A program made the translations under genes and the position numbers. From NCBI RefSeq assembly GCF_001486585.1, contig NZ_LN909046.1, positions 434,001-498,000 on the forward strand: a stretch of 64,000 bases of DNA. The letters are read 5' to 3'. Below are positions 49,704 through 60,582 of this stretch, piece by piece; positions within the stretch are counted from its first letter, which is position 1; each line of letters opens with the position of its first letter. This stretch comes from Paenibacillus senegalimassiliensis. GTDB taxonomy: Bacteria; Bacillota; Bacilli; Paenibacillales; Paenibacillaceae. The notes beneath the pieces are model-generated. The model made no database searches. It was given only the letters and a program-made list of their open reading frames with translations, and was not told where the DNA came from.

Positions 49704-51326
49704 TTATTTGCTGCGATCAAATCTATAATTTCCGTATTTCTCTGCGTTACGCAGGCTGGCCCAAATGTCCGAGGATTCACCGCCAATATGCCAATACGCA
49801 TAACCTGCGAGACCCAAATTAGTTCCTAGCTGTAGCTTGGCGGATAGGGAGCGAGCATCCTCCAGCCATATACGGTGCTTGGTGTTTGCCTTCCAGTATT
49901 CTGTCGTGTATTGACTGGCTGCGGAGTTCCACTTCAGAGAGCTTCCGGCTGCCTGGACCCGCTTGTTCTGCTCCGGCAACGAAAGGTCCTCGGATGAGAG
50001 GGTAGCCCCTTGGGCATTGATGGCCCAATCCCTAGTATACAGCGGCATGCCAAGTATCAATTGATCTGCTGGGACTTGGGGGAGTAGCTTGTCGAGATGC
50101 TGCTCTACCCAGTTTAAGGAGGCTACAGAGCCAGCTTTATATCCCGTCCAGTGCTCGTCATAGGCCATAATGACCAAATAATCGGCGTGCTTGGCCAATT
50201 CGGCATAGTTATAGGCTGCGGACCAATCACTGCCTAGATCAGGCGGCAGATCGACTGATAGAACGGCCTCAGCATTATGCAATTCCTCGGCCAGCTTGGC
50301 AATGAAGCTTGTGAACAAGTCGCGATCCGAAGCGTGGACATTCTCAAAGTCAAGGTTGATTCCGGCCAAGTTATATTTCTGTACATAGGACTTGATGCTC
50401 TGAATCGCAGTGGATGATAATGAATCGGAAGCGAGCATTTGATGAGTGGCCTTCTGGTCGAAGCGGTTCCCCACCATAGCCCATACCTGCTTGCCGTTAG
50501 CTTTGGCCCATGTATTTAAAGAAGGAACAGTGGAATCCGAAATCTGTCCGGTGCTTTCGAGAAAATACCATCTGGGCGAAAGCACGTTAATATTGGATTG
50601 CAGCACAGACCTCTGATAAGCTTCGGTAGATTGGCCGTATTGCCAGCCGATATGAATGGCCGTAGACGTAGTGGATTCAGCGTTTGCTGTCAGTTTATTC
50701 TTCCAACGAGTATCCTCCAGCAGACGGTCAAAAATAACAGCCGTCTCCTGACGAGTGATGGATTGTAACGGATAGAAACGACCTTCGCTGCCTTGCATTA
50801 ATCCGAGTGTTGATATGGCGGCGACATAAGGCTTGGCCCAGGCGGCGATGCTTGAAGTGTCTCGATAGGCAGAAAGCGAGCTTGCGGTGGGTATGTCTTG
50901 CTTAAGTGCCTTGGTCAGCCATACCGCCGCCTCTTGACGGGTTAGCACCTGGTCAGGCTGAAAGGTACCGTTTCCCAAGCCACTGGTTAAACCAAGTTCG
51001 GTTGCAGCTTGAATGGCTCCATAATACCAGGTGCTTCTTGGTACATCGGTATAGGCGGGAATAGCTGAGGAAGCGGGAGTGATTCCAAGAGCTCGCATCA
51101 GCACGGTGATGAACTCAGCCCTGGTGACGGAACGCTTTGGAGAGAAGGCCGTTGTCGTAGTCCCTTGCATGATGCCGCCGGCATGCAGGCGGGAAATGGC
51201 TTCCCTGGCATAGCTGGTTGAGATATCATGGTAAGGAAGCGTGGCGGCTGATGCTGGTTCTTGGCGAGTGGTGGTATATGAAAATAGCAACGTTCCTATG
51301 AGCATAAGCAAAATTATTTTTTTCAT
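49704..51326 (-). CDS. SLH-domain glycoside hydrolase family 18 protein
   Basis: A 540-residue exported protein. A signal peptide (KKIILLMLIGTLLFSY) is followed by three SLH repeats (AEFITVLMRALGI, RQEAAVWLTKAL, RQETAVIFDRLL; about residues 35-210), which bind pyruvylated cell-wall polymer. A GH18 barrel follows, with the catalytic stretch LAGINLDFENV and a late AGYAYWHIGGESSDIW. The GH18 part resembles spore/peptidoglycan N-acetylglucosaminidases such as YaaH/SleL and YdhD more than secreted chitinases. ATG 51326 follows AAGGAG. Confidence 0.85.
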   Translation of the reverse strand: MKKIILLMLIGTLLFSYTTTRQEPASAATLPYHDISTSYAREAISRLHAGGIMQGTTTTAFSPKRSVTRAEFITVLMRALGITPASSAIPAYTDVPRSTWYYGAIQAATELGLTSGLGNGTFQPDQVLTRQEAAVWLTKALKQDIPTASSLSAYRDTSSIAAWAKPYVAAISTLGLMQGSEGRFYPLQSITRQETAVIFDRLLEDTRWKNKLTANAESTTSTAIHIGWQYGQSTEAYQRSVLQSNINVLSPRWYFLESTGQISDSTVPSLNTWAKANGKQVWAMVGNRFDQKATHQMLASDSLSSTAIQSIKSYVQKYNLAGINLDFENVHASDRDLFTSFIAKLAEELHNAEAVLSVDLPPDLGSDWSAAYNYAELAKHADYLVIMAYDEHWTGYKAGSVASLNWVEQHLDKLLPQVPADQLILGMPLYTRDWAINAQGATLSSEDLSLPEQNKRVQAAGSSLKWNSAASQYTTEYWKANTKHRIWLEDARSLSAKLQLGTNLGLAGYAYWHIGGESSDIWASLRNAEKYGNYRFDRSK

Positions 51327-51449
51327 AAAGTAGAGCTCCTTGGCGAATTTAGTAGAATTGTCCTTAATTCTAACAGAATTGTAATCTTTCATCAGTGTTT
51401 AAAATCTGGAAATATATTATCAATTTCGTAAAAGTCGTTGTAACTTTTT

Positions 51450-51471: not shown

Positions 51472-51542
51472 GCAAGACATGATGACTTGCTGGACAAGGC
51501 AAGAAACGCACCACAAATCAAGAAATGGGAGACCGATACACG

Positions 51543-52382
51543 ATGATGCGATGGCTTCGCAAAACGGAAAAAGTGAAAGGTAAGTCCGAAGAAGAGTCAC
51601 GCGCTTCACAGGCCCAGATTGCTGTGGCTTTGGATGAAAGCGCTGTGGAGGAATCTGAACCCGAGGCCATTGTAGCTGCTAAGGTACGGGTAGAGGACGA
51701 ACGCGAGAAGGGGCCGATATTGTCGGTCAGGAATGTACACCGATCATTCCCGGTGGGCAGCGGAGAAATCAAGGTCCTGAAGGGAATTGATATGGAGGTG
51801 CTCCCTGGCCAATTGGTGATGCTTAAAGGCCGGTCCGGCTCGGGGAAGACGACGCTCCTGAATATGCTCGGCGGTCTTGATCAGCCGACATCCGGTGAAA
51901 TTTTGTTTCGCGGGCAGCCCCTGCATCAATTAAATGATGACAAGCGGACGTTGTTGCGACGTGATCAGATTGGTTTTATCTTTCAGGCCTACGCCCTGCT
52001 CCCTTTGTTGTCCGCTTGGGAGAACGTGGAGCTGTCACTGCGTATGGCCGGAGTTCCTTCCCAGGAGTGGAAGCAACGCGTCACACATTGCATGGAGCTT
52101 GTTGGGCTGGGCAAGCGAATGTTTCACCGACCGTTTGAGTTGTCCGGCGGGGAGCAGCAGCGGGTAGCGATTGCCAAAGCGATTGCGCACCGTCCCAAGC
52201 TGCTGCTGGCGGATGAACCGACGGCCAATCTCGATTCGCAAATGGGAGCACAAGTTATGGCAGTATTCAAAAATATCATACAAACCGAGCATGTTACGAT
52301 TTGTATGACGACACACGATCCTACAATCCTGGAGGTAGCAGACCATGTTTACGAAATGGTGGATGGCAAATTTATCAGGTAA
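51543..52382 (+). CDS. ABC transporter ATPase, MacB/LolD type (first of two)
   Basis: A 279-residue cytoplasmic ATPase with Walker A GRSGSGKTT (about residue 96), the signature [15 protein letters not shown] and Walker [13 protein letters not shown]. It belongs to the group that powers FtsX-like permeases. The first 60 residues are an extra charged Glu/Ala-rich extension not typical of the family. Start is unsure: ATG 51525 or 51543. The adaptor gene overlaps its end by 38 bases. Confidence 0.88.
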   Translation: MMRWLRKTEKVKGKSEEESRASQAQIAVALDESAVEESEPEAIVAAKVRVEDEREKGPILSVRNVHRSFPVGSGEIKVLKGIDMEVLPGQLVMLKGRSGSGKTTLLNMLGGLDQPTSGEILFRGQPLHQLNDDKRTLLRRDQIGFIFQAYALLPLLSAWENVELSLRMAGVPSQEWKQRVTHCMELVGLGKRMFHRPFELSGGEQQRVAIAKAIAHRPKLLLADEPTANLDSQMGAQVMAVFKNIIQTEHVTICMTTHDPTILEVADHVYEMVDGKFIR

Positions 52383-53439
52383 AGGGGGGAGAGTAGTTCG
52401 GCTGGCAGGCATTTTGACCTTGAGCCTAACGTTAGTAGCCGCATCCGGCTGTGCTTTGCTTCCGGATGAAGAGGCGGAAGAGGACTTGCCTGTAATCACG
52501 CCGCCGACGATTTCCAAGAAACCGGAATACGAGGTGCGCACGGAGACGATTGAATTGAACGTCAGCGCGGTCGGTAAAATTATGAGTCAAAGAGAGGAAC
52601 CTCTATTCTTCACAGAGGATAATCTTCATGTCAAAGAGGTGCTCGTTAAGGCTGGAGACAATGTGAAGCAAGGCGATGTGCTGATTCAATTGGACGTGGA
52701 GGATATGCAGAAGGACCTTCGCAAGAAAAGATTAGAGTTCCGCAAGCAGGAGATCGCTATGAAAGAGCTGCTGCGGACCAAGGATGAGAAGGAACCGATT
52801 GAGTTTGAAGAGGCGTCTATCGTTTTCGAAGAGCAGCGTCAGGATCTGGCGGATTTGGAAAAAACCATTGCGGACGGTACGCTCAAAGCGCCGTTCTCCG
52901 GTACGATTGTGTCTATTGCAGCGCAGAAGGGCGGCTCGATTAAGTCCTATGATACGGTAGCTGTTCTTTCCGATACATCTTCGCTGGTGGTTGCGGCGTC
53001 TTTTGCCAAGGAAGACTTAACGAAAATTGCCGTAGGCATGAATGCGAAGGTTGATATTAATGCATCTGGTGTATACGAGGGCAAGGTCAAGGTTATGCCC
53101 GTGAGCACGGGCTCTGACAATAATGATAATGGTAACAGCAATCCGAACCAGCCGGACAAGGATTCGATTGATAAGTACGTGATTGTTGAGCTGGCCAAAT
53201 GGCCGGAAGGCATTGAACGGGGCCGCCCGCTTAGCGTATCTATCGTGACTGAGCGCAAGGAGAATGCGGTGCTGATTCCTGCATCTGCTCTGCGTACCAT
53301 TGGCTCGCGGACGTATGTTCAGGTTGTTGAATCGGATGGCGCCAAACGTGAGGTGGATGTCGAGGTCGGGCTGCAAACTTCCACGGATGTAGAAATTGTG
53401 AAGGGACTTACCCCGGGACAGAAAGTAGTGGGTCGCTAG
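52345..53439 (+). CDS. Membrane-fusion/adaptor lipoprotein (HlyD/MacA-like)
   Basis: A 364-residue exported protein with a lipobox ending at about Cys36 (VAASGC). A biotinyl-lipoyl-like half motif (EDNLHVKEVLVKAGDNVKQGDVLIQLD), a coiled-coil hairpin (about residues 125-170), the second lipoyl half (GTLKAPFSGTIVSIAAQKG) and a beta-barrel domain follow. The ATG at 52345 has a clear GGAGGT eight bases before it, inside the ATPase gene. An Asn/Asp-rich insertion (DNNDNGNSNPNQPD) sits in the barrel. Confidence 0.88.
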   Translation: MFTKWWMANLSGKGGRVVRLAGILTLSLTLVAASGCALLPDEEAEEDLPVITPPTISKKPEYEVRTETIELNVSAVGKIMSQREEPLFFTEDNLHVKEVLVKAGDNVKQGDVLIQLDVEDMQKDLRKKRLEFRKQEIAMKELLRTKDEKEPIEFEEASIVFEEQRQDLADLEKTIADGTLKAPFSGTIVSIAAQKGGSIKSYDTVAVLSDTSSLVVAASFAKEDLTKIAVGMNAKVDINASGVYEGKVKVMPVSTGSDNNDNGNSNPNQPDKDSIDKYVIVELAKWPEGIERGRPLSVSIVTERKENAVLIPASALRTIGSRTYVQVVESDGAKREVDVEVGLQTSTDVEIVKGLTPGQKVVGR

Positions 53440-56370
53440 ATGGGTATTCCTTTATTACGCCTGCTGTTCCGTAAGATGTGGAACACGAAATGGCTGACGC
53501 TGAGCACTTTGCTAGGCTTGATTGTCGCCGTCTCGTTCACTGTCAGCATTCCGATGTATTCGGACGGCTCGCTGAAGAGAGTGGTTGCCACAACGCTGAA
53601 GAGCGAAAGCGAAGGGCTCCCGGCAGGCTCCTTAATCATGAGCTATCAGGCGGCGGGCGGGACCAAAACGGATCAGGGCGCCTTGGAGGCTGTTAACCAA
53701 TATATCATTGACGAGGTTCCCCAGGAAATTGGTTTTCCATACGATGCCTACGTGAATACTCGTGCCATTCGTGGTACCGAGGTATTCCCGGAAGATCCCA
53801 CAAAGGTGGATGCCAGTCGGACGAGAACCATGTCGATCCTCTCGATGAGCGGCTTGGCTGAGCATATTTCACTTTCGGGCGGTCAATTGTTCTCGGACAG
53901 TGTCAACGACAATATGGTCGAAGCGCTGATGCTGGAGGAGGCGATGTACCGCCAGGACCTTCACGTCGGTGATGTGATGGAATACCCGGTATACAGCGGG
54001 GTAGATATCACGCTCAAGGTCAAAATCGTCGGCACATTCCAGGCTGAAAATGAGAGTGATTCATATTGGTATCAAGGCTTTGAAGGGATGATGAACAGCT
54101 TCTACATCTCGGAGAAAGCGTTTAATGATGTATTGCTAAAGCAATTATCAATACCTTTGCATAATTCAAGCTGGTATTATGCCTTTAATTTATCTGAAAT
54201 TCAGACCAGCCAGTTGTCCCCATTATCCGATACACTGGATCGGTTGAATGTGGACCTGTATCAGAAACTCAAGGATACCAAGGTTGATGTTTCATTTGGC
54301 AGTCTACTAAGTGATTTCCGCAAGCAAAGCTTGCAAATGCAAACCTTGCTGTTCACCTTGGCAGCGCCTATGATTGCGATGGTATTCTATTACATCGTGA
54401 TGAATGCACGCCAGGCGCTGGATAAGCAACAGAGCGATATCGCGGTACTACGCAGCCGCGGGGCGTCAACGAAGCAGATTATTCTTATTTATTTGCTGGA
54501 GAGCTTGATCCTTGGAGCTATTTCTTTGATTGCCGGACCGCTGCTGGGTTGGTTTATGTCCAAAAGTATCGGGTCTGCAGATGGTTTCCTGACCTTCGTC
54601 AATCGTCAATCCATTCCGGTTGGATTTAATCTGGATGCTCTCGCGTTGGGTGGAGCAGCGGTAGTTATCGCTATCTTGGCTACCTTGCTGCCGGCGGTGT
54701 CCTACGCTAGGTCATCTATTGTGAAGGCAAAGCAGAAGCAAGCCCGTTCCGATCGTGCACCATTCTGGCAACGGTGGTTCATAGATATTGTATTGATGGC
54801 AATCGCTGGCTATGGTTACTATCTGTTCAATGAACGGCAGATGTTGACCTTCCAAACTGGTATGACGACGGATGAACTACAGGTGCAGCCGTTTCTGTTC
54901 TTCGTGCCTGCACTGGCGATTTTCTCCATTGGCCTATTCTTCCTGCGGGTATTCCCGTGGTTGTTGAAGCTGATTGGCTGGCTCGGCAAGAAGTGGTTGC
55001 CGGTGCCTTACTATTTGAGCTTAACTCAGCTCTCCCGTTCTTCTTCATCTTATTATCCGTTGATGATTCTGCTTGTGTTGACTCTGGGACTTGGTGTGTA
55101 TAACGCTTCGGCAGCCCGGACGATCGATTTGAATTCGACGGAACGGACTCTCTACAAATACGGTTCAGATGTCATTATGCGCACCGTATGGGAGGGAACG
55201 GCAGAGATTACTCGTCCTACCCAAGGGGGCGGTTCCGGAGGGAATCAAAATCCTGGGCAAGGCGGGAACTCCGGACAGCCGGGAGGCGGCGGGAATCCAG
55301 GTGCTCCAGGTGGGGGTGGCGGCTCTGGTGGCGGTGCTCCGGGAGGGGGCCAAAATCAGACGCCATCCAAAGTTATCTACTCCGAACCGCCATTTGAAAT
55401 TTTCCGGGAGCTCGATGGTGTGGAGCATGCCGCACGGGTGCTTCAAACCAAGGGGAATATTATTGTGTCCGGACGTTCGGCTGGGCAAGGGAATGTGATG
55501 GGGATCGATAACCTGGACTTTTCCAAGGTGGGATGGTTCCGAAAAGACCTGTTCCCTACGCATCCCTTCCGTTATTTGCAGTTTCTTGGCATGAACGAAA
55601 GTGCAGCGTTAATACCTTCTAACATGGCGGAGAAATACAAGCTGAAGTCGGGGGATGTATTCACGATTGCGATCGGCGATCAGACGGTGGAATTTGCCGT
55701 TTATGGTATTTTGCCATATTGGCCTAGTCAGTACCCGGATCAAACTCCGTTTGTCATCGCCAATCTGGATTATATTTATGATCAGGTTCCGCTCATACCT
55801 TATGAGGTATGGCTGAAGATGGAGCCGGGAGCCAAGGTGGCCCCGCTGATTACCAAATTAGCCGAGCAAGGCATTGATCTTTATTCGGTTGATGACGTGC
55901 GCAGTGAACTGGCAGCACAAAGCAAGCATCCGACACGGGGCGGAGTATTCGGTATTTTGAGCCTGGGCTTCCTCGTTTCGGTCATTGTCTCACTGATCGG
56001 CTACATCCTGTATTGGTTCTTCAACCTGTCAGGCCGGGTCGTTCAGTTCGGAATATTGCGGGCGATGGGCTTATCACGCAAGCAGTTGACGTTCATGCTG
56101 CTGGCTGAGCAGATTTTGACGGCAGGACTGTCTATCGCATTGGGTATCGTCATCGGGAAGATCGCCGGGAAGCTGTACCTGCCCTTCCTGCAAACGGCTG
56201 ATAATGTGACGACGCAAGTACCACCGTTCCGCATTGTATTTGATTCGCAGGATACGCTTCAGCTATATGTGGTCGTATTCGTGATGCTGCTGCTGGGTGC
56301 CGGGCTGCTGCTCTGGCAAATTCGGCGCTTGCGGGTGCATCAGGCCGTTAAAATGGGAGAGGAGCGTTAA
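53440..56370 (+). CDS. Large FtsX-like ABC permease
   Basis: A 976-residue membrane protein. A first membrane helix near residue 25 is followed by a large outside domain, then FtsX-type core helices (about residues 300-450 and 840-970), with further helices near 450-560. The outside part between them contains a Gly/Pro/Gln-rich linker (about residues 595-645, GGGSGG and similar), which is rare in permeases. The arrangement resembles duplicated FtsX/LolCE modules fused in one chain. The ATG directly follows the adaptor stop codon. Confidence 0.86.
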   Translation: MGIPLLRLLFRKMWNTKWLTLSTLLGLIVAVSFTVSIPMYSDGSLKRVVATTLKSESEGLPAGSLIMSYQAAGGTKTDQGALEAVNQYIIDEVPQEIGFPYDAYVNTRAIRGTEVFPEDPTKVDASRTRTMSILSMSGLAEHISLSGGQLFSDSVNDNMVEALMLEEAMYRQDLHVGDVMEYPVYSGVDITLKVKIVGTFQAENESDSYWYQGFEGMMNSFYISEKAFNDVLLKQLSIPLHNSSWYYAFNLSEIQTSQLSPLSDTLDRLNVDLYQKLKDTKVDVSFGSLLSDFRKQSLQMQTLLFTLAAPMIAMVFYYIVMNARQALDKQQSDIAVLRSRGASTKQIILIYLLESLILGAISLIAGPLLGWFMSKSIGSADGFLTFVNRQSIPVGFNLDALALGGAAVVIAILATLLPAVSYARSSIVKAKQKQARSDRAPFWQRWFIDIVLMAIAGYGYYLFNERQMLTFQTGMTTDELQVQPFLFFVPALAIFSIGLFFLRVFPWLLKLIGWLGKKWLPVPYYLSLTQLSRSSSSYYPLMILLVLTLGLGVYNASAARTIDLNSTERTLYKYGSDVIMRTVWEGTAEITRPTQGGGSGGNQNPGQGGNSGQPGGGGNPGAPGGGGGSGGGAPGGGQNQTPSKVIYSEPPFEIFRELDGVEHAARVLQTKGNIIVSGRSAGQGNVMGIDNLDFSKVGWFRKDLFPTHPFRYLQFLGMNESAALIPSNMAEKYKLKSGDVFTIAIGDQTVEFAVYGILPYWPSQYPDQTPFVIANLDYIYDQVPLIPYEVWLKMEPGAKVAPLITKLAEQGIDLYSVDDVRSELAAQSKHPTRGGVFGILSLGFLVSVIVSLIGYILYWFFNLSGRVVQFGILRAMGLSRKQLTFMLLAEQILTAGLSIALGIVIGKIAGKLYLPFLQTADNVTTQVPPFRIVFDSQDTLQLYVVVFVMLLLGAGLLLWQIRRLRVHQAVKMGEER

Positions 56371-56372
56371 AG

Positions 56373-57257
56373 ATGATTCAATGCGAAGGACTCGTCAAGA
56401 TTTTCAAATCCGAAGACATCGAGGTTGTGGCGCTCCAAGGCCTGAACTTATCCGTTGAGCAGGGCGAGATGATGGCGATTATCGGTAATAGTGGTAGCGG
56501 CAAATCAACGCTGTTGAATATTTTGGGTGGGCTGGATCATCCTTCGGCAGGGCAAGTGTCTGTTGGAGGGTGGGACCTACTTAAGATTCAGGATGATCAA
56601 TTGGTAGAGTACAAGCGCAATACGGTGGGATTTGTCTGGCAAAATAATGCCCGTAACTTGCTGCCTTATTTAACGGCGCTGGAGAATGTGGAGATGCCGA
56701 TGCTGTTGACCGGCAAGCTCGATCGGGCCTATGCCCAGGAACTACTGGAACGCGTAGGGCTGAAGGATAGGATGCACAATAAGTTGCACCAGCTTTCGGG
56801 TGGGGAGCAGCAGCGGGTGGCGATTGCTATTTCGCTATCTAATCGTCCGAAGCTGCTGCTGGCCGATGAACCCACGGGTTCGGTGGATACGGCGACTTCC
56901 GATCAAATCATGCAGATCTTCCGGCAAGTCAATCGGGAGCTTGGCATTACGGTCGTTATCGTTACGCATGACTTGACGTTAGCAGGTAAGGTAGACCGGG
57001 TAGTAGCCATTCGCGATGGTCTGACCAGCACCGAGTTTGTGAAGCGTAATCCGAACCTGGATTTGGCTGCGGCAGAGCTGGCTGGTGGGCTCCAAGAGGT
57101 GCATGAGGCGTTTGTGGTCGTTGACCGCGTGGGCCGCCTGCAAGTTCCTAAGGAGTATCTGGAGTCCGTAGGAATTAGCGGCCGGGCGTCGATGGAGTTT
57201 GATGGGGAGAAGATTGTGATTACGGCACCTAAACCATTGGAGGAGGAACAATCATGA
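56373..57257 (+). CDS. ABC transporter ATPase, second copy with C-terminal extension
   Basis: A 294-residue ATPase with Walker [25 protein letters not shown] and [12 protein letters not shown]. After the nucleotide domain (to about residue 220) there is an extension of about 70 residues ([21 protein letters not shown]...), resembling the small AbrB-like or regulatory tails of some ATPases. It starts two bases after the permease stop and overlaps the next gene by four bases. Confidence 0.88.
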
Positions 57258-58756
57258 CGAAGAAATATGGGAGGCTGAAGAAGCTGCTGTCCATCTCGTT
57301 GACTGCTACGCTGGCCTTGGGCCTGCTCGCAGGCTGCAACAGCGGCAAAGCCGTGGATAATCAGCAGGAGAAGGTTCTGCGTATCGGGGTGCTGTACGGG
57401 GGATATGACGACTCTTATTTCCGTCAACAATACACTGATGTATATGAGTTTACAAATCAAAATGTCCGTATTGAAATTGTTCCGGCGATTGATCAATCCC
57501 AATATCGGTATCAGGACAGCTCGCAGCCTTATGTTCAGCCTGATTATCTGGAAAGCATGAAGCAGGTCATGGGCGGGAGCAATCCGGTAGACATTGTTGT
57601 GACCGATACTAGCGTGCTTAATCAATTGATTAAGGAAAACATGCTTAAGTCACTGGATCCGTTGATTCAGGAGGATAAATTTGATACGGCGGACTTTGTT
57701 CCTGCGGTAATTGACGGAATCAAGGATATGGGGGAAGGCAACCTGTATGCTCTGACACCTTCTTTCTCTTCCTCAGCATTGTACTATAACAAACAAATCT
57801 TCACGGATGCGGGTGTGGAGCCACCTACGGACAATATGACCTGGGAAGATATCTTTAACCTGGCCCGCCGCGTAACGAAGGGCGAGGGTAAAGAACGCGT
57901 TTACGGCTTCACCTTCAGTCGTTATATGGGCAATGATCCATTCTGGGATATGCAATCCAACTATATCCCTGCGCTTCAGCTCAAAACCTTTGACGAAAAA
58001 GCTGAGACGATGACGGTGAACACGCCGCAATGGACGAAGGTTTGGGAAACGATCAGCAAGCTGTCCAAGGAGAAGGTTCTTCCCGATAGCAACTCCATGA
58101 TGGATGGAATGGATGGCAACTGGACCCCGATCAGCAGCGATATGTTCCTGTCAGGTAAAGTAGCGATGACGATTGGCGAAAATTATTATGTCAACGAAAT
58201 CAATGATGCCAATAACAATGCCTCGAAAATCAAAAACTTTAAGGCTGTGGATTGGGATGTTGTTACGGTTCCTTCCCATCCAGAGAAGCCGGGTGTAGGG
58301 GGAAATATTTGGCTAAATAATTTATTTGCTATCAATAGCGCTGCCCCTAATCCGGAGACGGCCTGGGATTTCATTAAATTTATTAATGGTGCGGACTGGG
58401 CTAAATTAAAATCCCGTAGTAATTCTTATGAAATGCTGGCCCGCAAAACTTATATTCAGCCGAGAAACGGGCTGGATTACAACATTCAAGCATTCTATTT
58501 GTTGAAGCCTATACCACCTAGTGATTCCAAGCTCGATAAATTGATGATGGAGAAGCCAGGACTGTATAGCGTTAACGATAGTGGTCGCCAGTTCTTCCAA
58601 GAGGTGCTGGAGAACAAGAAGACGCCTGAGGAAGCCTTGAAGGCGTGGGAAGAGAAAGGAAATACCATGCTGCAAGAGATTAAGAACAATCCGAAAACCC
58701 AGTTCCAGGGTGACGGTACGCCATTTGTTCCGACCGATGCGGCTGTGGAAGGATAA
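57254..58756 (+). CDS. Extracellular solute-binding lipoprotein (sugar-type, family 1)
   Basis: A 500-residue lipoprotein with a lipobox at Cys28 (LLAGC). The body resembles family 1 carbohydrate-binding proteins (PVDIVVTDTSVLNQL, YALTPSFSSSALYYNKQIF, FLSGKVAMTIGENYY, NPETAWDFIKFINGADWAK). Such proteins normally serve importers with two small MalF/G-type permeases, which are absent here. Its ATG overlaps the second ATPase gene by four bases, so it is a true part of this operon. A terminator follows. Confidence 0.87.
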   Translation: MTKKYGRLKKLLSISLTATLALGLLAGCNSGKAVDNQQEKVLRIGVLYGGYDDSYFRQQYTDVYEFTNQNVRIEIVPAIDQSQYRYQDSSQPYVQPDYLESMKQVMGGSNPVDIVVTDTSVLNQLIKENMLKSLDPLIQEDKFDTADFVPAVIDGIKDMGEGNLYALTPSFSSSALYYNKQIFTDAGVEPPTDNMTWEDIFNLARRVTKGEGKERVYGFTFSRYMGNDPFWDMQSNYIPALQLKTFDEKAETMTVNTPQWTKVWETISKLSKEKVLPDSNSMMDGMDGNWTPISSDMFLSGKVAMTIGENYYVNEINDANNNASKIKNFKAVDWDVVTVPSHPEKPGVGGNIWLNNLFAINSAAPNPETAWDFIKFINGADWAKLKSRSNSYEMLARKTYIQPRNGLDYNIQAFYLLKPIPPSDSKLDKLMMEKPGLYSVNDSGRQFFQEVLENKKTPEEALKAWEEKGNTMLQEIKNNPKTQFQGDGTPFVPTDAAVEG

Positions 58757-58778: not shown

Positions 58779-58815
58779 AAAAAGCCGTACGGTGCTAAAC
58801 CGACGGCTTTTTTTG
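58779..58815 (+). terminator. Rho-independent terminator of the ABC operon
   Basis: aaagccgtacggt pairs with accgacggctttt (one mismatch), followed by seven Ts. Confidence 0.85.
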
Positions 58816-59139: not shown

Positions 59140-59213
59140 CGCGGGGTGGAGCAGCCCGGTAGCTCGTCGGGCTCATAACCCCAAGGCCGCAGGTTCAAAT
59201 CCTGCCCCCGCAA
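59140..59213 (+). tRNA. Initiator tRNA-Met (CAU)
   Basis: A 74-base tRNA with anticodon CAT. It has the C1 x A72 mismatch that marks initiator tRNA and three G-C pairs in the anticodon stem (GGG...CCC). The CCA end is not encoded. Confidence 0.93.
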
Positions 59214-59229
59214 TTCATTTAAGTCGTTC

Positions 59230-59303
59230 GGGCCCTTAGCTCAGTTGGTTAGAGCGGTCGGCTCATAACCGATTGGTCGGGGGTTCAAGTCCCTCAGGGC
59301 CCA
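59230..59303 (+). tRNA. tRNA with CAU anticodon, probably tRNA-Ile2 (lysidine type)
   Basis: A 74-base tRNA starting GGGCCCTTAGCTCAG with a fully paired acceptor stem. The body (CTTAGCTCAGTTGGTTAGAGC; TTGGTCG; TTCAAGTCC) resembles tRNA-Ile2, whose C34 is changed to lysidine by TilS to read AUA, more than elongator tRNA-Met. The integrated element starts about 110 bases downstream, so its 3' end may be the attachment site. Confidence 0.85.
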
Positions 59304-59312
59304 TAATGCGTG

Positions 59313-59338
59313 AACCCCTTGCCTAGCAAGGGGTTTTT
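59313..59338 (+). terminator. Rho-independent terminator after the tRNA pair
   Basis: aaccccttgc pairs with gcaaggggtt around CTA, followed by TTTTT. Confidence 0.85.
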
Positions 59339-59413
59339 GCTATTTGGTAGGGTGGTAGAGTTGGGGGGATTCGTGCTGCAAAATGACCTTAAATCTATTT
59401 TGCTAACGGAGTC

Positions 59414-60180
59414 TTAAACGTTCGTTGGCTCAAGGGATTTTTCGCTGTGCTTCTTAAGTTCTGCTTCAATTCGATCTACAGCTTCGTCTTGCATTGTAGG
59501 GAGCAAGTGAGAGTATCGCTCGTTGAACATTGCTGGTGTCATACCCAGACGCTCCGCAGCTACTTTAGGATTGATTTCTATTTTGAGAAGAAACGAAGCA
59601 TGGGTATGCCTGAGATCGTGGAAGCGAATTTTCTTTACTCCGGCTTTCCGTACGAGGACAACCATGCCTTCAGTAATTCGCTTTGGCTTGATATAGCCTC
59701 CGGTGGGATAGCAGCAAACTAAATCATTATCCTCGTATGCATCCCCGTATTCCGCTTTTAGCGCTTGGACTTGCTCATAGCGCTCCTGCAGATCGTCCAG
59801 CACGGCCTGAAACAGCTTGACGCTACGTATGGAGTAGTTTGTCTTAGGACGCTGAATAACGAGACCTGAGCGTGTCCAATTGGCCGTTTGTATGACTTTC
59901 AGCTCGCGATGATCGAAATCTATGTCCTGCCAGCGCAGGCCAAGGATCTCTCCGCGACGCATCCCTGTGTAAATGGCCAGAGAGAATACAATATAATGTA
60001 CATGTCCCTTGGAGGACTCCAGGAATTTTGTGAAATCCTCGACAGACCAGAACTGCATCTCCTTCTGTTCATTAGCATTTACTTTACTCCGCATGGACAC
60101 CTTACTCATGACATCTTCAGCAAGCAGACCAGACTCGGTATAGGCGAGACGAAGAGCCCGCTTAAGGGTATTGATGATAG
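59414..60180 (-). pseudogene. Tyrosine recombinase (phage integrase), N-terminally truncated
   Basis: The catalytic domain is complete: Arg in TGMRRGEILGLRWQDIDFD, HDLRHTHASFL, and the tyrosine in MFNERYSHLL. The recognisable part begins around INTLKRALRLAY near 60180. The arm- and core-binding domains (about 150 residues) are missing, and the open frame continues into unrelated DNA antisense to a truncated phage gene. The gene reads toward the tRNA at 59303, as expected for an element inserted into a tRNA 3' end. It is probably a remnant left by a deletion that joined both element arms near 60170-60195. Confidence 0.75.
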
Positions 60181-60189
60181 GGAAGGGAT

Positions 60190-60499
60190 AGACTTCACGG
60201 ACGATGGCAGCCAGGAGCCCGGTGCTCCAGAGGATGAGCTGACGGACTACGAGCGGGAAATTATGGATGAGGTTGAAATCAGCAAGGAGGCTCTTGAGGA
60301 GTTCATTATCAACAAGGCTCCTGTTTTTGAGGACATTCCATTCGACTTCCCAACCCTTCTTAAGCAGCGGAAGGAAGAAAGCAAAACCTGGATGCAGATT
60401 GCCAAGGAGGCAGGCGTACCGAGTTTGCAAATCAGTTCGAAGTATTCCGCGTACAAAAAGCGGGTTGAGAAACTTATGAAAGACGGGGGAGCGGCTTAA
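60190..60499 (+). pseudogene. Phage-like gene fragment lacking its 5' part
   Basis: The coding-like sequence begins around GIDFTDDGSQEPGAPEDEL and continues with an acidic region, then a basic helix-turn-helix-like end (WMQIAKEAGVPSLQISSKYSAYKKRVEKLMKDG). There is no start codon or ribosome site at its left side. The open frame extends further left only over the antisense of the integrase. I do not recognise the family; position suggests a replication or accessory phage gene. Confidence 0.55.
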
Positions 60500-60582
60500 T
60501 TCGTTTCCTGTGATATTAGAATCGGGGAGGGCCATCTGCGGCCCTCTGACCGAACGTATGATCGTCTGAAGGGGTGGTAAGT

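Follow-up and report, generated by a model that had tools for sequence, protein, structure and literature searches.

We describe a five-gene operon in a 64,000-nucleotide stretch of the Paenibacillus senegalimassiliensis genome (contig NZ_LN909046.1, positions 434,001 to 498,000; hereafter the window). Five forward-strand open reading frames (ORFs) follow one another at 51525-58756 and encode an ATPase (A1), an adaptor (AD), a permease (PM), another ATPase (A2) and a binding lipoprotein (SB), with coordinates in Table 1. On balance, we favor the reading that the five proteins form one heterodimeric type VII ATP-binding cassette (ABC) mechanotransducer, whose work outside the cell would be fed or gated by the lipoprotein. 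The evidence consists of the gene order, the protein families, their conservation, the predicted permease fold, the intact ATPase motifs and the lack of MalF/G permeases alongside; from it we infer the assembly, ligand, direction and output of the machine.

A conserved five-gene operon

The original prediction, made from the window's letters and ORF translations, described the genes as one unit with a 38-base overlap, a zero gap, a 2-base gap and a 4-base overlap, and the measured spacings in the order A1-AD-PM-A2-SB (-38, 0, +2 and -4 bases) agreed. An in-frame ATG at 51543, where the prediction put the beginning of the unit, offers an alternative start within the A1 ORF. The prediction's five family assignments were upheld by Pfam and NCBIfam: PF00005 was found in A1 and A2, HlyD_D23/HlyD_3 in AD, FtsX in PM and SBP_bac_1 in SB, every match exceeding the Pfam cut-off, and AD also passed the NCBIfam RND_mfp (TIGR01730) cut-off (102.1 versus 94.9 bits). 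The prediction proposed searching for the same gene order elsewhere. Scanning named genomes with PM as query gave 137 related stretches, from which 80 loci were retained, the closest named relative found being Paenibacillus sanguinis (95% in PM). All five genes were present and in order at 76 of these loci, three of which had A1 or SB split into ORF pieces (L143, L163, L165); three of the four exceptions sit at contig ends (L101, L103, L118). Because the order recurs at 76 of 80 loci, chance overlap of five genes was rejected, and the unit stands as a conserved operon.

Co-occurrence across the order was equally regular. With thresholds of E <= 1e-170 for PM and E <= 1e-40 for SB, 296 genomes of the order gave PM in 197 and SB in 226: both in 197, PM only in 0, SB only in 29 and neither in 70. 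In all 48 genomes compared, out of the 197, the starts of PM and SB are separated by 2.3-3.9 kb on a single contig. A second SB gene stands in tandem at five of the 80 named loci (L110, L120, L126, L133, L165), and a different genome (L085) has three SB genes. Upstream, the carB, pyrF and pyrE families, assigned by size and place, were found at 55, 53 and 53 of the 80 loci and carA at 42, some counts being lost through short flanks. Loci from other families of the order (L066, L070, L071, L073) have the same neighbors. The plain reading is that the locus is old and vertically inherited; its place behind the pyrimidine operon adds to what was originally predicted.

Class-wide, 37 of 348 genomes matched the PM profile at E <= 1e-60 (20 of them from the window's own family), and phylum-wide 11 of 348 did so (three from that family). 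Of the 17 class matches from beyond the order, 12 were examined with their flanks, as were all eight phylum matches from beyond the class. SB genes lay behind A2 at five of the 12 (L214, L215 with three, L217, L218 with two and L219 with two); none was detected at the remaining seven or at the eight outside the class (L225-L232), where the probes may miss diverged ones, and the L221 contig stops directly after A2.

Predicted architecture of the machine

The AlphaFold2 model of PM has ten long helices; one outer domain is inserted between helices 1 and 2, the other between helices 7 and 8. The best fold match of the whole-length model was E. coli YbbP, with BceB, LolE and MacB also retrieved, and outer domain 2 alone matched the outer domains of LolE, LolC, YknZ and MacB. 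PF02687, the model and the fold matches together point to the hallmark of the type VII (MacB) superfamily, an FtsX-type helix bundle in which a large outer domain separates helices 1 and 2 of each module, and the predicted fold class of PM is a type VII ABC pseudo-dimer. The duplicated FtsX modules foreseen in a single permease chain were recovered twice over, as two PF02687 stretches and in the model topology. The Gly-rich linker foreseen outside the cell likewise falls within outer domain 2 of the model, at about residues 590-643, where the predicted local distance difference test score (pLDDT) is below 50. AD carries, by eye, a lipobox-like AASGC at its N-terminus.

A LolD/FtsE/MacB-type ATPase partner is a further type VII feature, and the top NCBIfam matches were LolD, DevA, FtsE and MacB for A1 and LolD and MacB for A2, all below equivalog cut-offs. 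The two ATPases are distinct, as originally predicted, and their genes are both conserved; both proteins are apparently active, with Walker A, Q-loop, LSGGEQQ and H-loop kept at residues 102, 153, 206 and 262 of A1 and 38, 89, 141 and 197 of A2; the Walker B stretch was identified by reading the translations. An acidic N-terminal extension had been assigned to one ATPase; A1 does have one, varying in length and sequence among relatives, and its acidity proved only mild (net charge over the first 60 residues -3, versus -4 in A2). The C-terminal extension is present on A2, and its resemblance to AbrB and MraZ had gone unnoticed.

Several lines of evidence bear on this A2 tail. Within its last 59 residues, H, D, GRLQ, P and I are invariant in 16 of 16 chosen aligned sequences, the diverged four-gene branch included (in this alignment, A4, rows L107 and L114 begin late because their tails are longer). 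The tail thus aligned shows D-x-x-G-R-x-x-x-P, which is the AbrB motif. A profile of the tail matched B. subtilis AbrB structures (E 0.008) and, through a partly overlapping stretch, signal recognition particle proteins better (E 0.003-0.005). Scans with single members matched MraZ in 13 of 16 and MazE in nine of 16, all weakly (best E 0.0025 and 3.5e-4, respectively); the window's own tail scanned alone matched neither. VanW, the sole Pfam match of the tail alone (E 0.12), was rejected. The model of the 59 residues (pLDDT 71) has the strand-strand-helix-strand-strand order of AbrB, and the top three Foldseek rows were AbrB (E 0.097 to 0.23, none significant alone), with Abh, SpoVT, MazE and unrelated proteins also among the first twelve. 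Taken together, alignment, profile, model and Foldseek suggest that the tail is likely a swapped-hairpin domain of the AbrB/MraZ kind. Such domains usually dimerize and often bind DNA.

We propose the following mechanism. The operon would encode a single envelope machine, belonging to the type VII ABC class (MacB/LolCDE/YbbAP/BceAB). Because the permease is predicted to be pseudo-dimeric and two ATPase genes are conserved, a YbbP-like PM chain would be served in the cytoplasm by one A1 and one A2. By analogy with solved relatives, ATP binding would shut the lever and set both outer domains in motion together with the stacked adaptor. The ligand caught by SB would probably be a glycan, from the envelope or the surroundings; loaded SB would either hand it to the outer domains and AD or gate the motor. 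Work would be done on the membrane's outer face and not in sugar import. The AbrB-like tail would most likely dimerize or regulate the motor from the cytoplasm, and might bind DNA. A bolder version, in which an SB-dependent type VII machine reports glycan capture outside directly to the DNA- or partner-binding AbrB-like domain of A2, with no two-component system, seems to us improbable.

Role of the binding lipoprotein

Solute-binding proteins usually mark importers, and FtsX permeases usually mark export or mechanical work. SB is a clear family 1 protein (PF01547, 85.6 bits versus a cut-off of 26), with its lipobox Cys28 present in at least 90% of 30 aligned sequences, and its nearest solved relatives mostly carry sugar-binding protein names. 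Family 1 proteins normally serve importers, so SB might pass its ligand to the FtsX pseudo-dimer for movement into the cell. We regard such a true importer as very improbable, since no BPD_transp_1-type permease stands beside SB. At least 69 of the host's 81 SBP_bac_1 genes start less than 5 kb from a BPD_transp_1 gene, a lower bound because 150 of 226 PF00528 candidates were scored (distances start to start, either strand). For SB, the nearest such gene among the matches listed is 36 kb off, and a nearer gene may be absent from that list; eleven more of the 81 also lie more than 5 kb from a listed one. Eight MalF/G-like host proteins, which matched four of four control loci (the probe sources), were used as probes for such permeases. 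They found MalF/G-like ORFs at two of the 80 named loci (L164, L099), each at least 2 kb beyond SB, at none of 16 loci of other families (at least two of these without an SB gene) and at none of the 12 solo-SB loci described below. The absence of MalF/G noted in the original prediction was supported, such ORFs appearing at two of the 108 loci scanned. Of the features of a CUT1 importer, the unit has the SBP_bac_1 binding protein and lacks MalF/MalG (BPD_transp_1) permeases alongside; a sugar importer whose MalF/G had merely gone missing was rejected on the 36-kb distance and the locus scan.

Several observations weigh against an SB-dependent machine. The PM model is of moderate confidence only (pLDDT 70.6, predicted template modeling score 0.52). 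One named locus, that of P. camelliae (L119), has the four transporter genes and no SB in almost 9 kb after A2, the rest of that genome not having been searched. Diverged four-gene sets in the order are mostly without an SB detected by sequence probes (L074, L076, L077, L079-L081, L083, L084). The strongest fact against an obligate-subunit role is the existence of solo SB genes. We examined 16 of the 29 SB-only genomes. In 12 of them an intact SB stands behind pyrE and none of the four transporter genes occurs in the 19-kb stretch (L166-L172, L184-L188; nine from genus g18, three from g20); at L168 a transposase gene lies between pyrE and SB. The others gave a broken SB copy near pyrE (L189), other binding proteins of 30-32% identity (L190, L191) and a cut contig with A2 still visible (L192). 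When whole genomes were searched with PM, 18 of 20 had no match at E 1e-30, these including the 12 solos except G186; G186 and G124 hold a diverged permease only (30-31% in its first half). For solo SB, the eight closest g18 pairs gave a ratio of nonsynonymous to synonymous substitution rates (dN/dS) of 0.09-0.17, and three g20 pairs gave 0.09-0.12. The corresponding ratio of uncorrected differences (pN/pS) had a median of 0.26 in 36 g18 solo pairs versus 0.45 in 36 operon-copy pairs, whose sites are near saturation. Solo SB genes are under purifying selection. By eye, the cysteine at the lipobox position is gone in nine of nine g18 solos, which carry an earlier cysteine within the hydrophobic stretch, and is kept in three of three g20 solos.

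Because solo SB is intact after transporter loss and under purifying selection, it has some role without the four partners in these genomes, and the idea that SB is inseparable from the transporter genes was rejected. We infer that the solo state arose by transporter loss, the simpler history because in other families all five genes sit at the pyr locus. The original prediction would have been undermined by a binding-protein gene that usually stands apart from the other four or pairs with MalF/G elsewhere, and the outcome mostly favors the prediction. SB accompanies PM in all 197 PM genomes and has no MalF/G at the 12 solo loci, while the 29 SB-only genomes show that the association can be broken. 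Distance correlations corrected for pyrE/pyrF were computed for those 55 of the 80 loci where all seven genes were available; L143, L163 and L165 were dropped for split genes. SB gave 0.68 with PM, 0.66 with AD, 0.54 with A2 and 0.14 with A1, and PM-AD and A1-PM gave 0.81 and 0.49. The SB-PM and SB-AD values are compatible with a shared outer-face function; such a mirror-tree correlation is no contact test, and the value of only 0.14 between SB and A1 also counts against a single assembly.

Two further explanations have to be set beside the mechanotransducer. SB could be a surface-bound or secreted protein in its own right, linked to the transporter only by a shared transcript, and could scavenge, sense or decorate alone while the four-gene transporter works without it. 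The twelve intact solos and their purifying selection, the lost lipobox cysteine in g18 and the P. camelliae locus all speak for this account, whereas none of the 296 genomes has PM without SB, and SB keeps its position right behind A2, on the same strand, across families and is sometimes duplicated in place; we consider it possible, though the less likely reading. Alternatively, the transporter could be a MacAB-like peptide or drug pump, with SB as an external decoy, immunity or substrate-picking factor. A MacA-type adaptor above cut-off, LolD/MacB-type ATPases and related outer domains fit a pump, yet PM is a predicted ten-helix single chain and not the 4-helix MacB form, and pyrimidine genes are the only widely shared neighbors at the 80 loci, so that we hold this to be unlikely.

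A deeply conserved operon that unites SB with an FtsX permease, unlike ATPases and a regulatory-looking tail departs from the usual division between importer and export markers. It is a system in which to examine how outside partners are gained by type VII machines, and it points to an unstudied means by which cells may sense or handle material at their surface. Reading SB as part of an importer would mislead widely, because 197 of the 296 genomes sampled from the order, two thirds, carry the unit. The natural losses that leave SB alone make subunit and solo roles separable and give the field its best natural experiment.

Surroundings of the operon and known systems

Table 1. Positions of the operon genes, their predicted domains and neighboring features.
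Feature	Position	Strand	Evidence
A1, LolD/MacB-type ABC ATPase with variable N-terminal extension	51525..52382	+	PF00005, E 1.8e-34
AD, MacA/HlyD-type adaptor	52345..53439	+	NCBIfam TIGR01730, 102.1 bits
PM, permease, 976 aa, two FtsX modules	53440..56370	+	PF02687 in two stretches; model; fold matches
PM outer domain 1 (residues 57-286), predicted	53608..54297	+	AlphaFold2 model
PM outer domain 2 (residues 575-836), predicted	55162..55947	+	AlphaFold2 model
A2, LolD/MacB-type ABC ATPase ending in a probable AbrB/MraZ-like domain	56373..57257	+	PF00005, E 1.3e-33
Probable AbrB/MraZ-like swapped-hairpin domain at A2 end	57102..57230	+	Invariant residues; weak profile and Foldseek matches
SB, binding lipoprotein, family 1 solute-binding protein	57254..58756	+	PF01547, E 8e-24
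Likely intrinsic terminator of operon	58779..58812	+	Hairpin -22.4 kcal/mol, z -5.6, 0/200 shuffles as good, then T run
S-layer homology (SLH) + glycosyl hydrolase 18 protein, divergent from operon	49704-51392	-	
Sixth-gene examples	L102:15430-17715; L073:1086-3674; L214:1444-3516; L217:11245-13749		

The hairpin behind SB was not listed by a simple consensus scan, and a promoter scan found no promoter-like site that stood out directly upstream of A1, such sites being no commoner than chance. Two tRNA-Met genes come after the hairpin; they and a tyrosine recombinase on the opposite strand occupy 59140-60535, a region where an integrated element may have its attachment site. At 16 of the 80 named loci, and at L072, L073, L214 and L217, a sixth gene lies behind SB on the same strand (L067 and L102 are one record). 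This gene, an addition to the original prediction, encodes a large protein of 690-862 residues; the proteins are all homologous, with a signal-peptide-like start (by eye) and only weak DUF4352 matches. Because 256 of 296 genomes match, some without the transporter, the sixth gene is one member of a wider secreted family, and the possibility that it is exclusive to the operon was rejected. The host's homologue lies on a different contig from the window, which is in contig 15 of the host genome (G000): it is found on contig 13 at 391586-394078, among S-layer-domain proteins. The SLH and glycosyl hydrolase 18 family occupies its divergent place at 19 of the 80 loci, and with the sixth gene it hints at surface-layer or wall-polymer biology, no more.

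Three diverged sets showed other neighbors. A different SBP_bac_1 gene lies 14 bases behind A2 at L082:3779-5095, followed by cytochrome oxidase genes; because a search with the window SB missed its product, a separate recruitment is possible. At L075:10506-13463 a binding-protein gene precedes A1 and overlaps its start, with a histidine kinase gene adjoining. A link to a two-component system was rejected, a histidine kinase beside the unit having been seen only there, among neighbors not all of which were classified. At L221:1354-4865 two S-layer-homology proteins are encoded between A1 and the adaptor.

In open-licence PubMed Central (PMC) text we found neither a description of this operon nor a report of an ABC ATPase that carries a fused AbrB domain; papers elsewhere may hold either. 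Our comparisons draw on parts of three papers (PMC11466899, PMC8386196, PMC12646458). CUT1 sugar importers of the MalEFGK type share the SBP_bac_1 binding protein with the operon, which differs in its FtsX permease, its MacA-type adaptor and the lack of MalF/G alongside. YtrBCDEF of B. subtilis differs in that YtrB, in the text consulted, serves other permeases. That system is not known to have an adaptor or an SBP_bac_1 protein. MacAB, Spr0693-0695 and YknXYZ are closer, with a MacA-type adaptor in the operon, a LolD/MacB ATPase and related outer domains. They are known to have a single ATPase type and are not known to have a solute-binding protein, and in the accessible descriptions of the group 4+4 helices come from two chains, versus the predicted ten-helix single chain here; MacAB itself has the ATPase fused in a 4-helix homodimeric MacB, versus separate ATPase genes here. 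BceAB, as far as the available text goes, has one outer domain and uses BceA twice, versus two outer domains in the PM model. It is not known to have an adaptor or a binding protein.

The nearest known system is E. coli YbbAP-TesA. In the portion of PMC12646458 available, its single 10-helix permease has outer domains at helices 1-2 and 7-8, two copies of an identical ATPase, YbbA, serve each permease, and the soluble outer partner TesA is an esterase. The operon would share the 10-helix pseudo-dimeric permease layout (a moderate model and a fold match), two ATPases per permease and an outer partner. It differs in having two distinct conserved ATPase genes in place of YbbA used twice, and an SBP_bac_1 protein with an RND_mfp adaptor in the operon in place of an esterase (one encoded elsewhere was not looked for). 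The AbrB-like tail of A2 has no counterpart mentioned for YbbA in that portion of the paper. We concluded that the operon resembles YbbAP-TesA in layout and is no member of it, because it has two ATPase types and no esterase partner in the operon.

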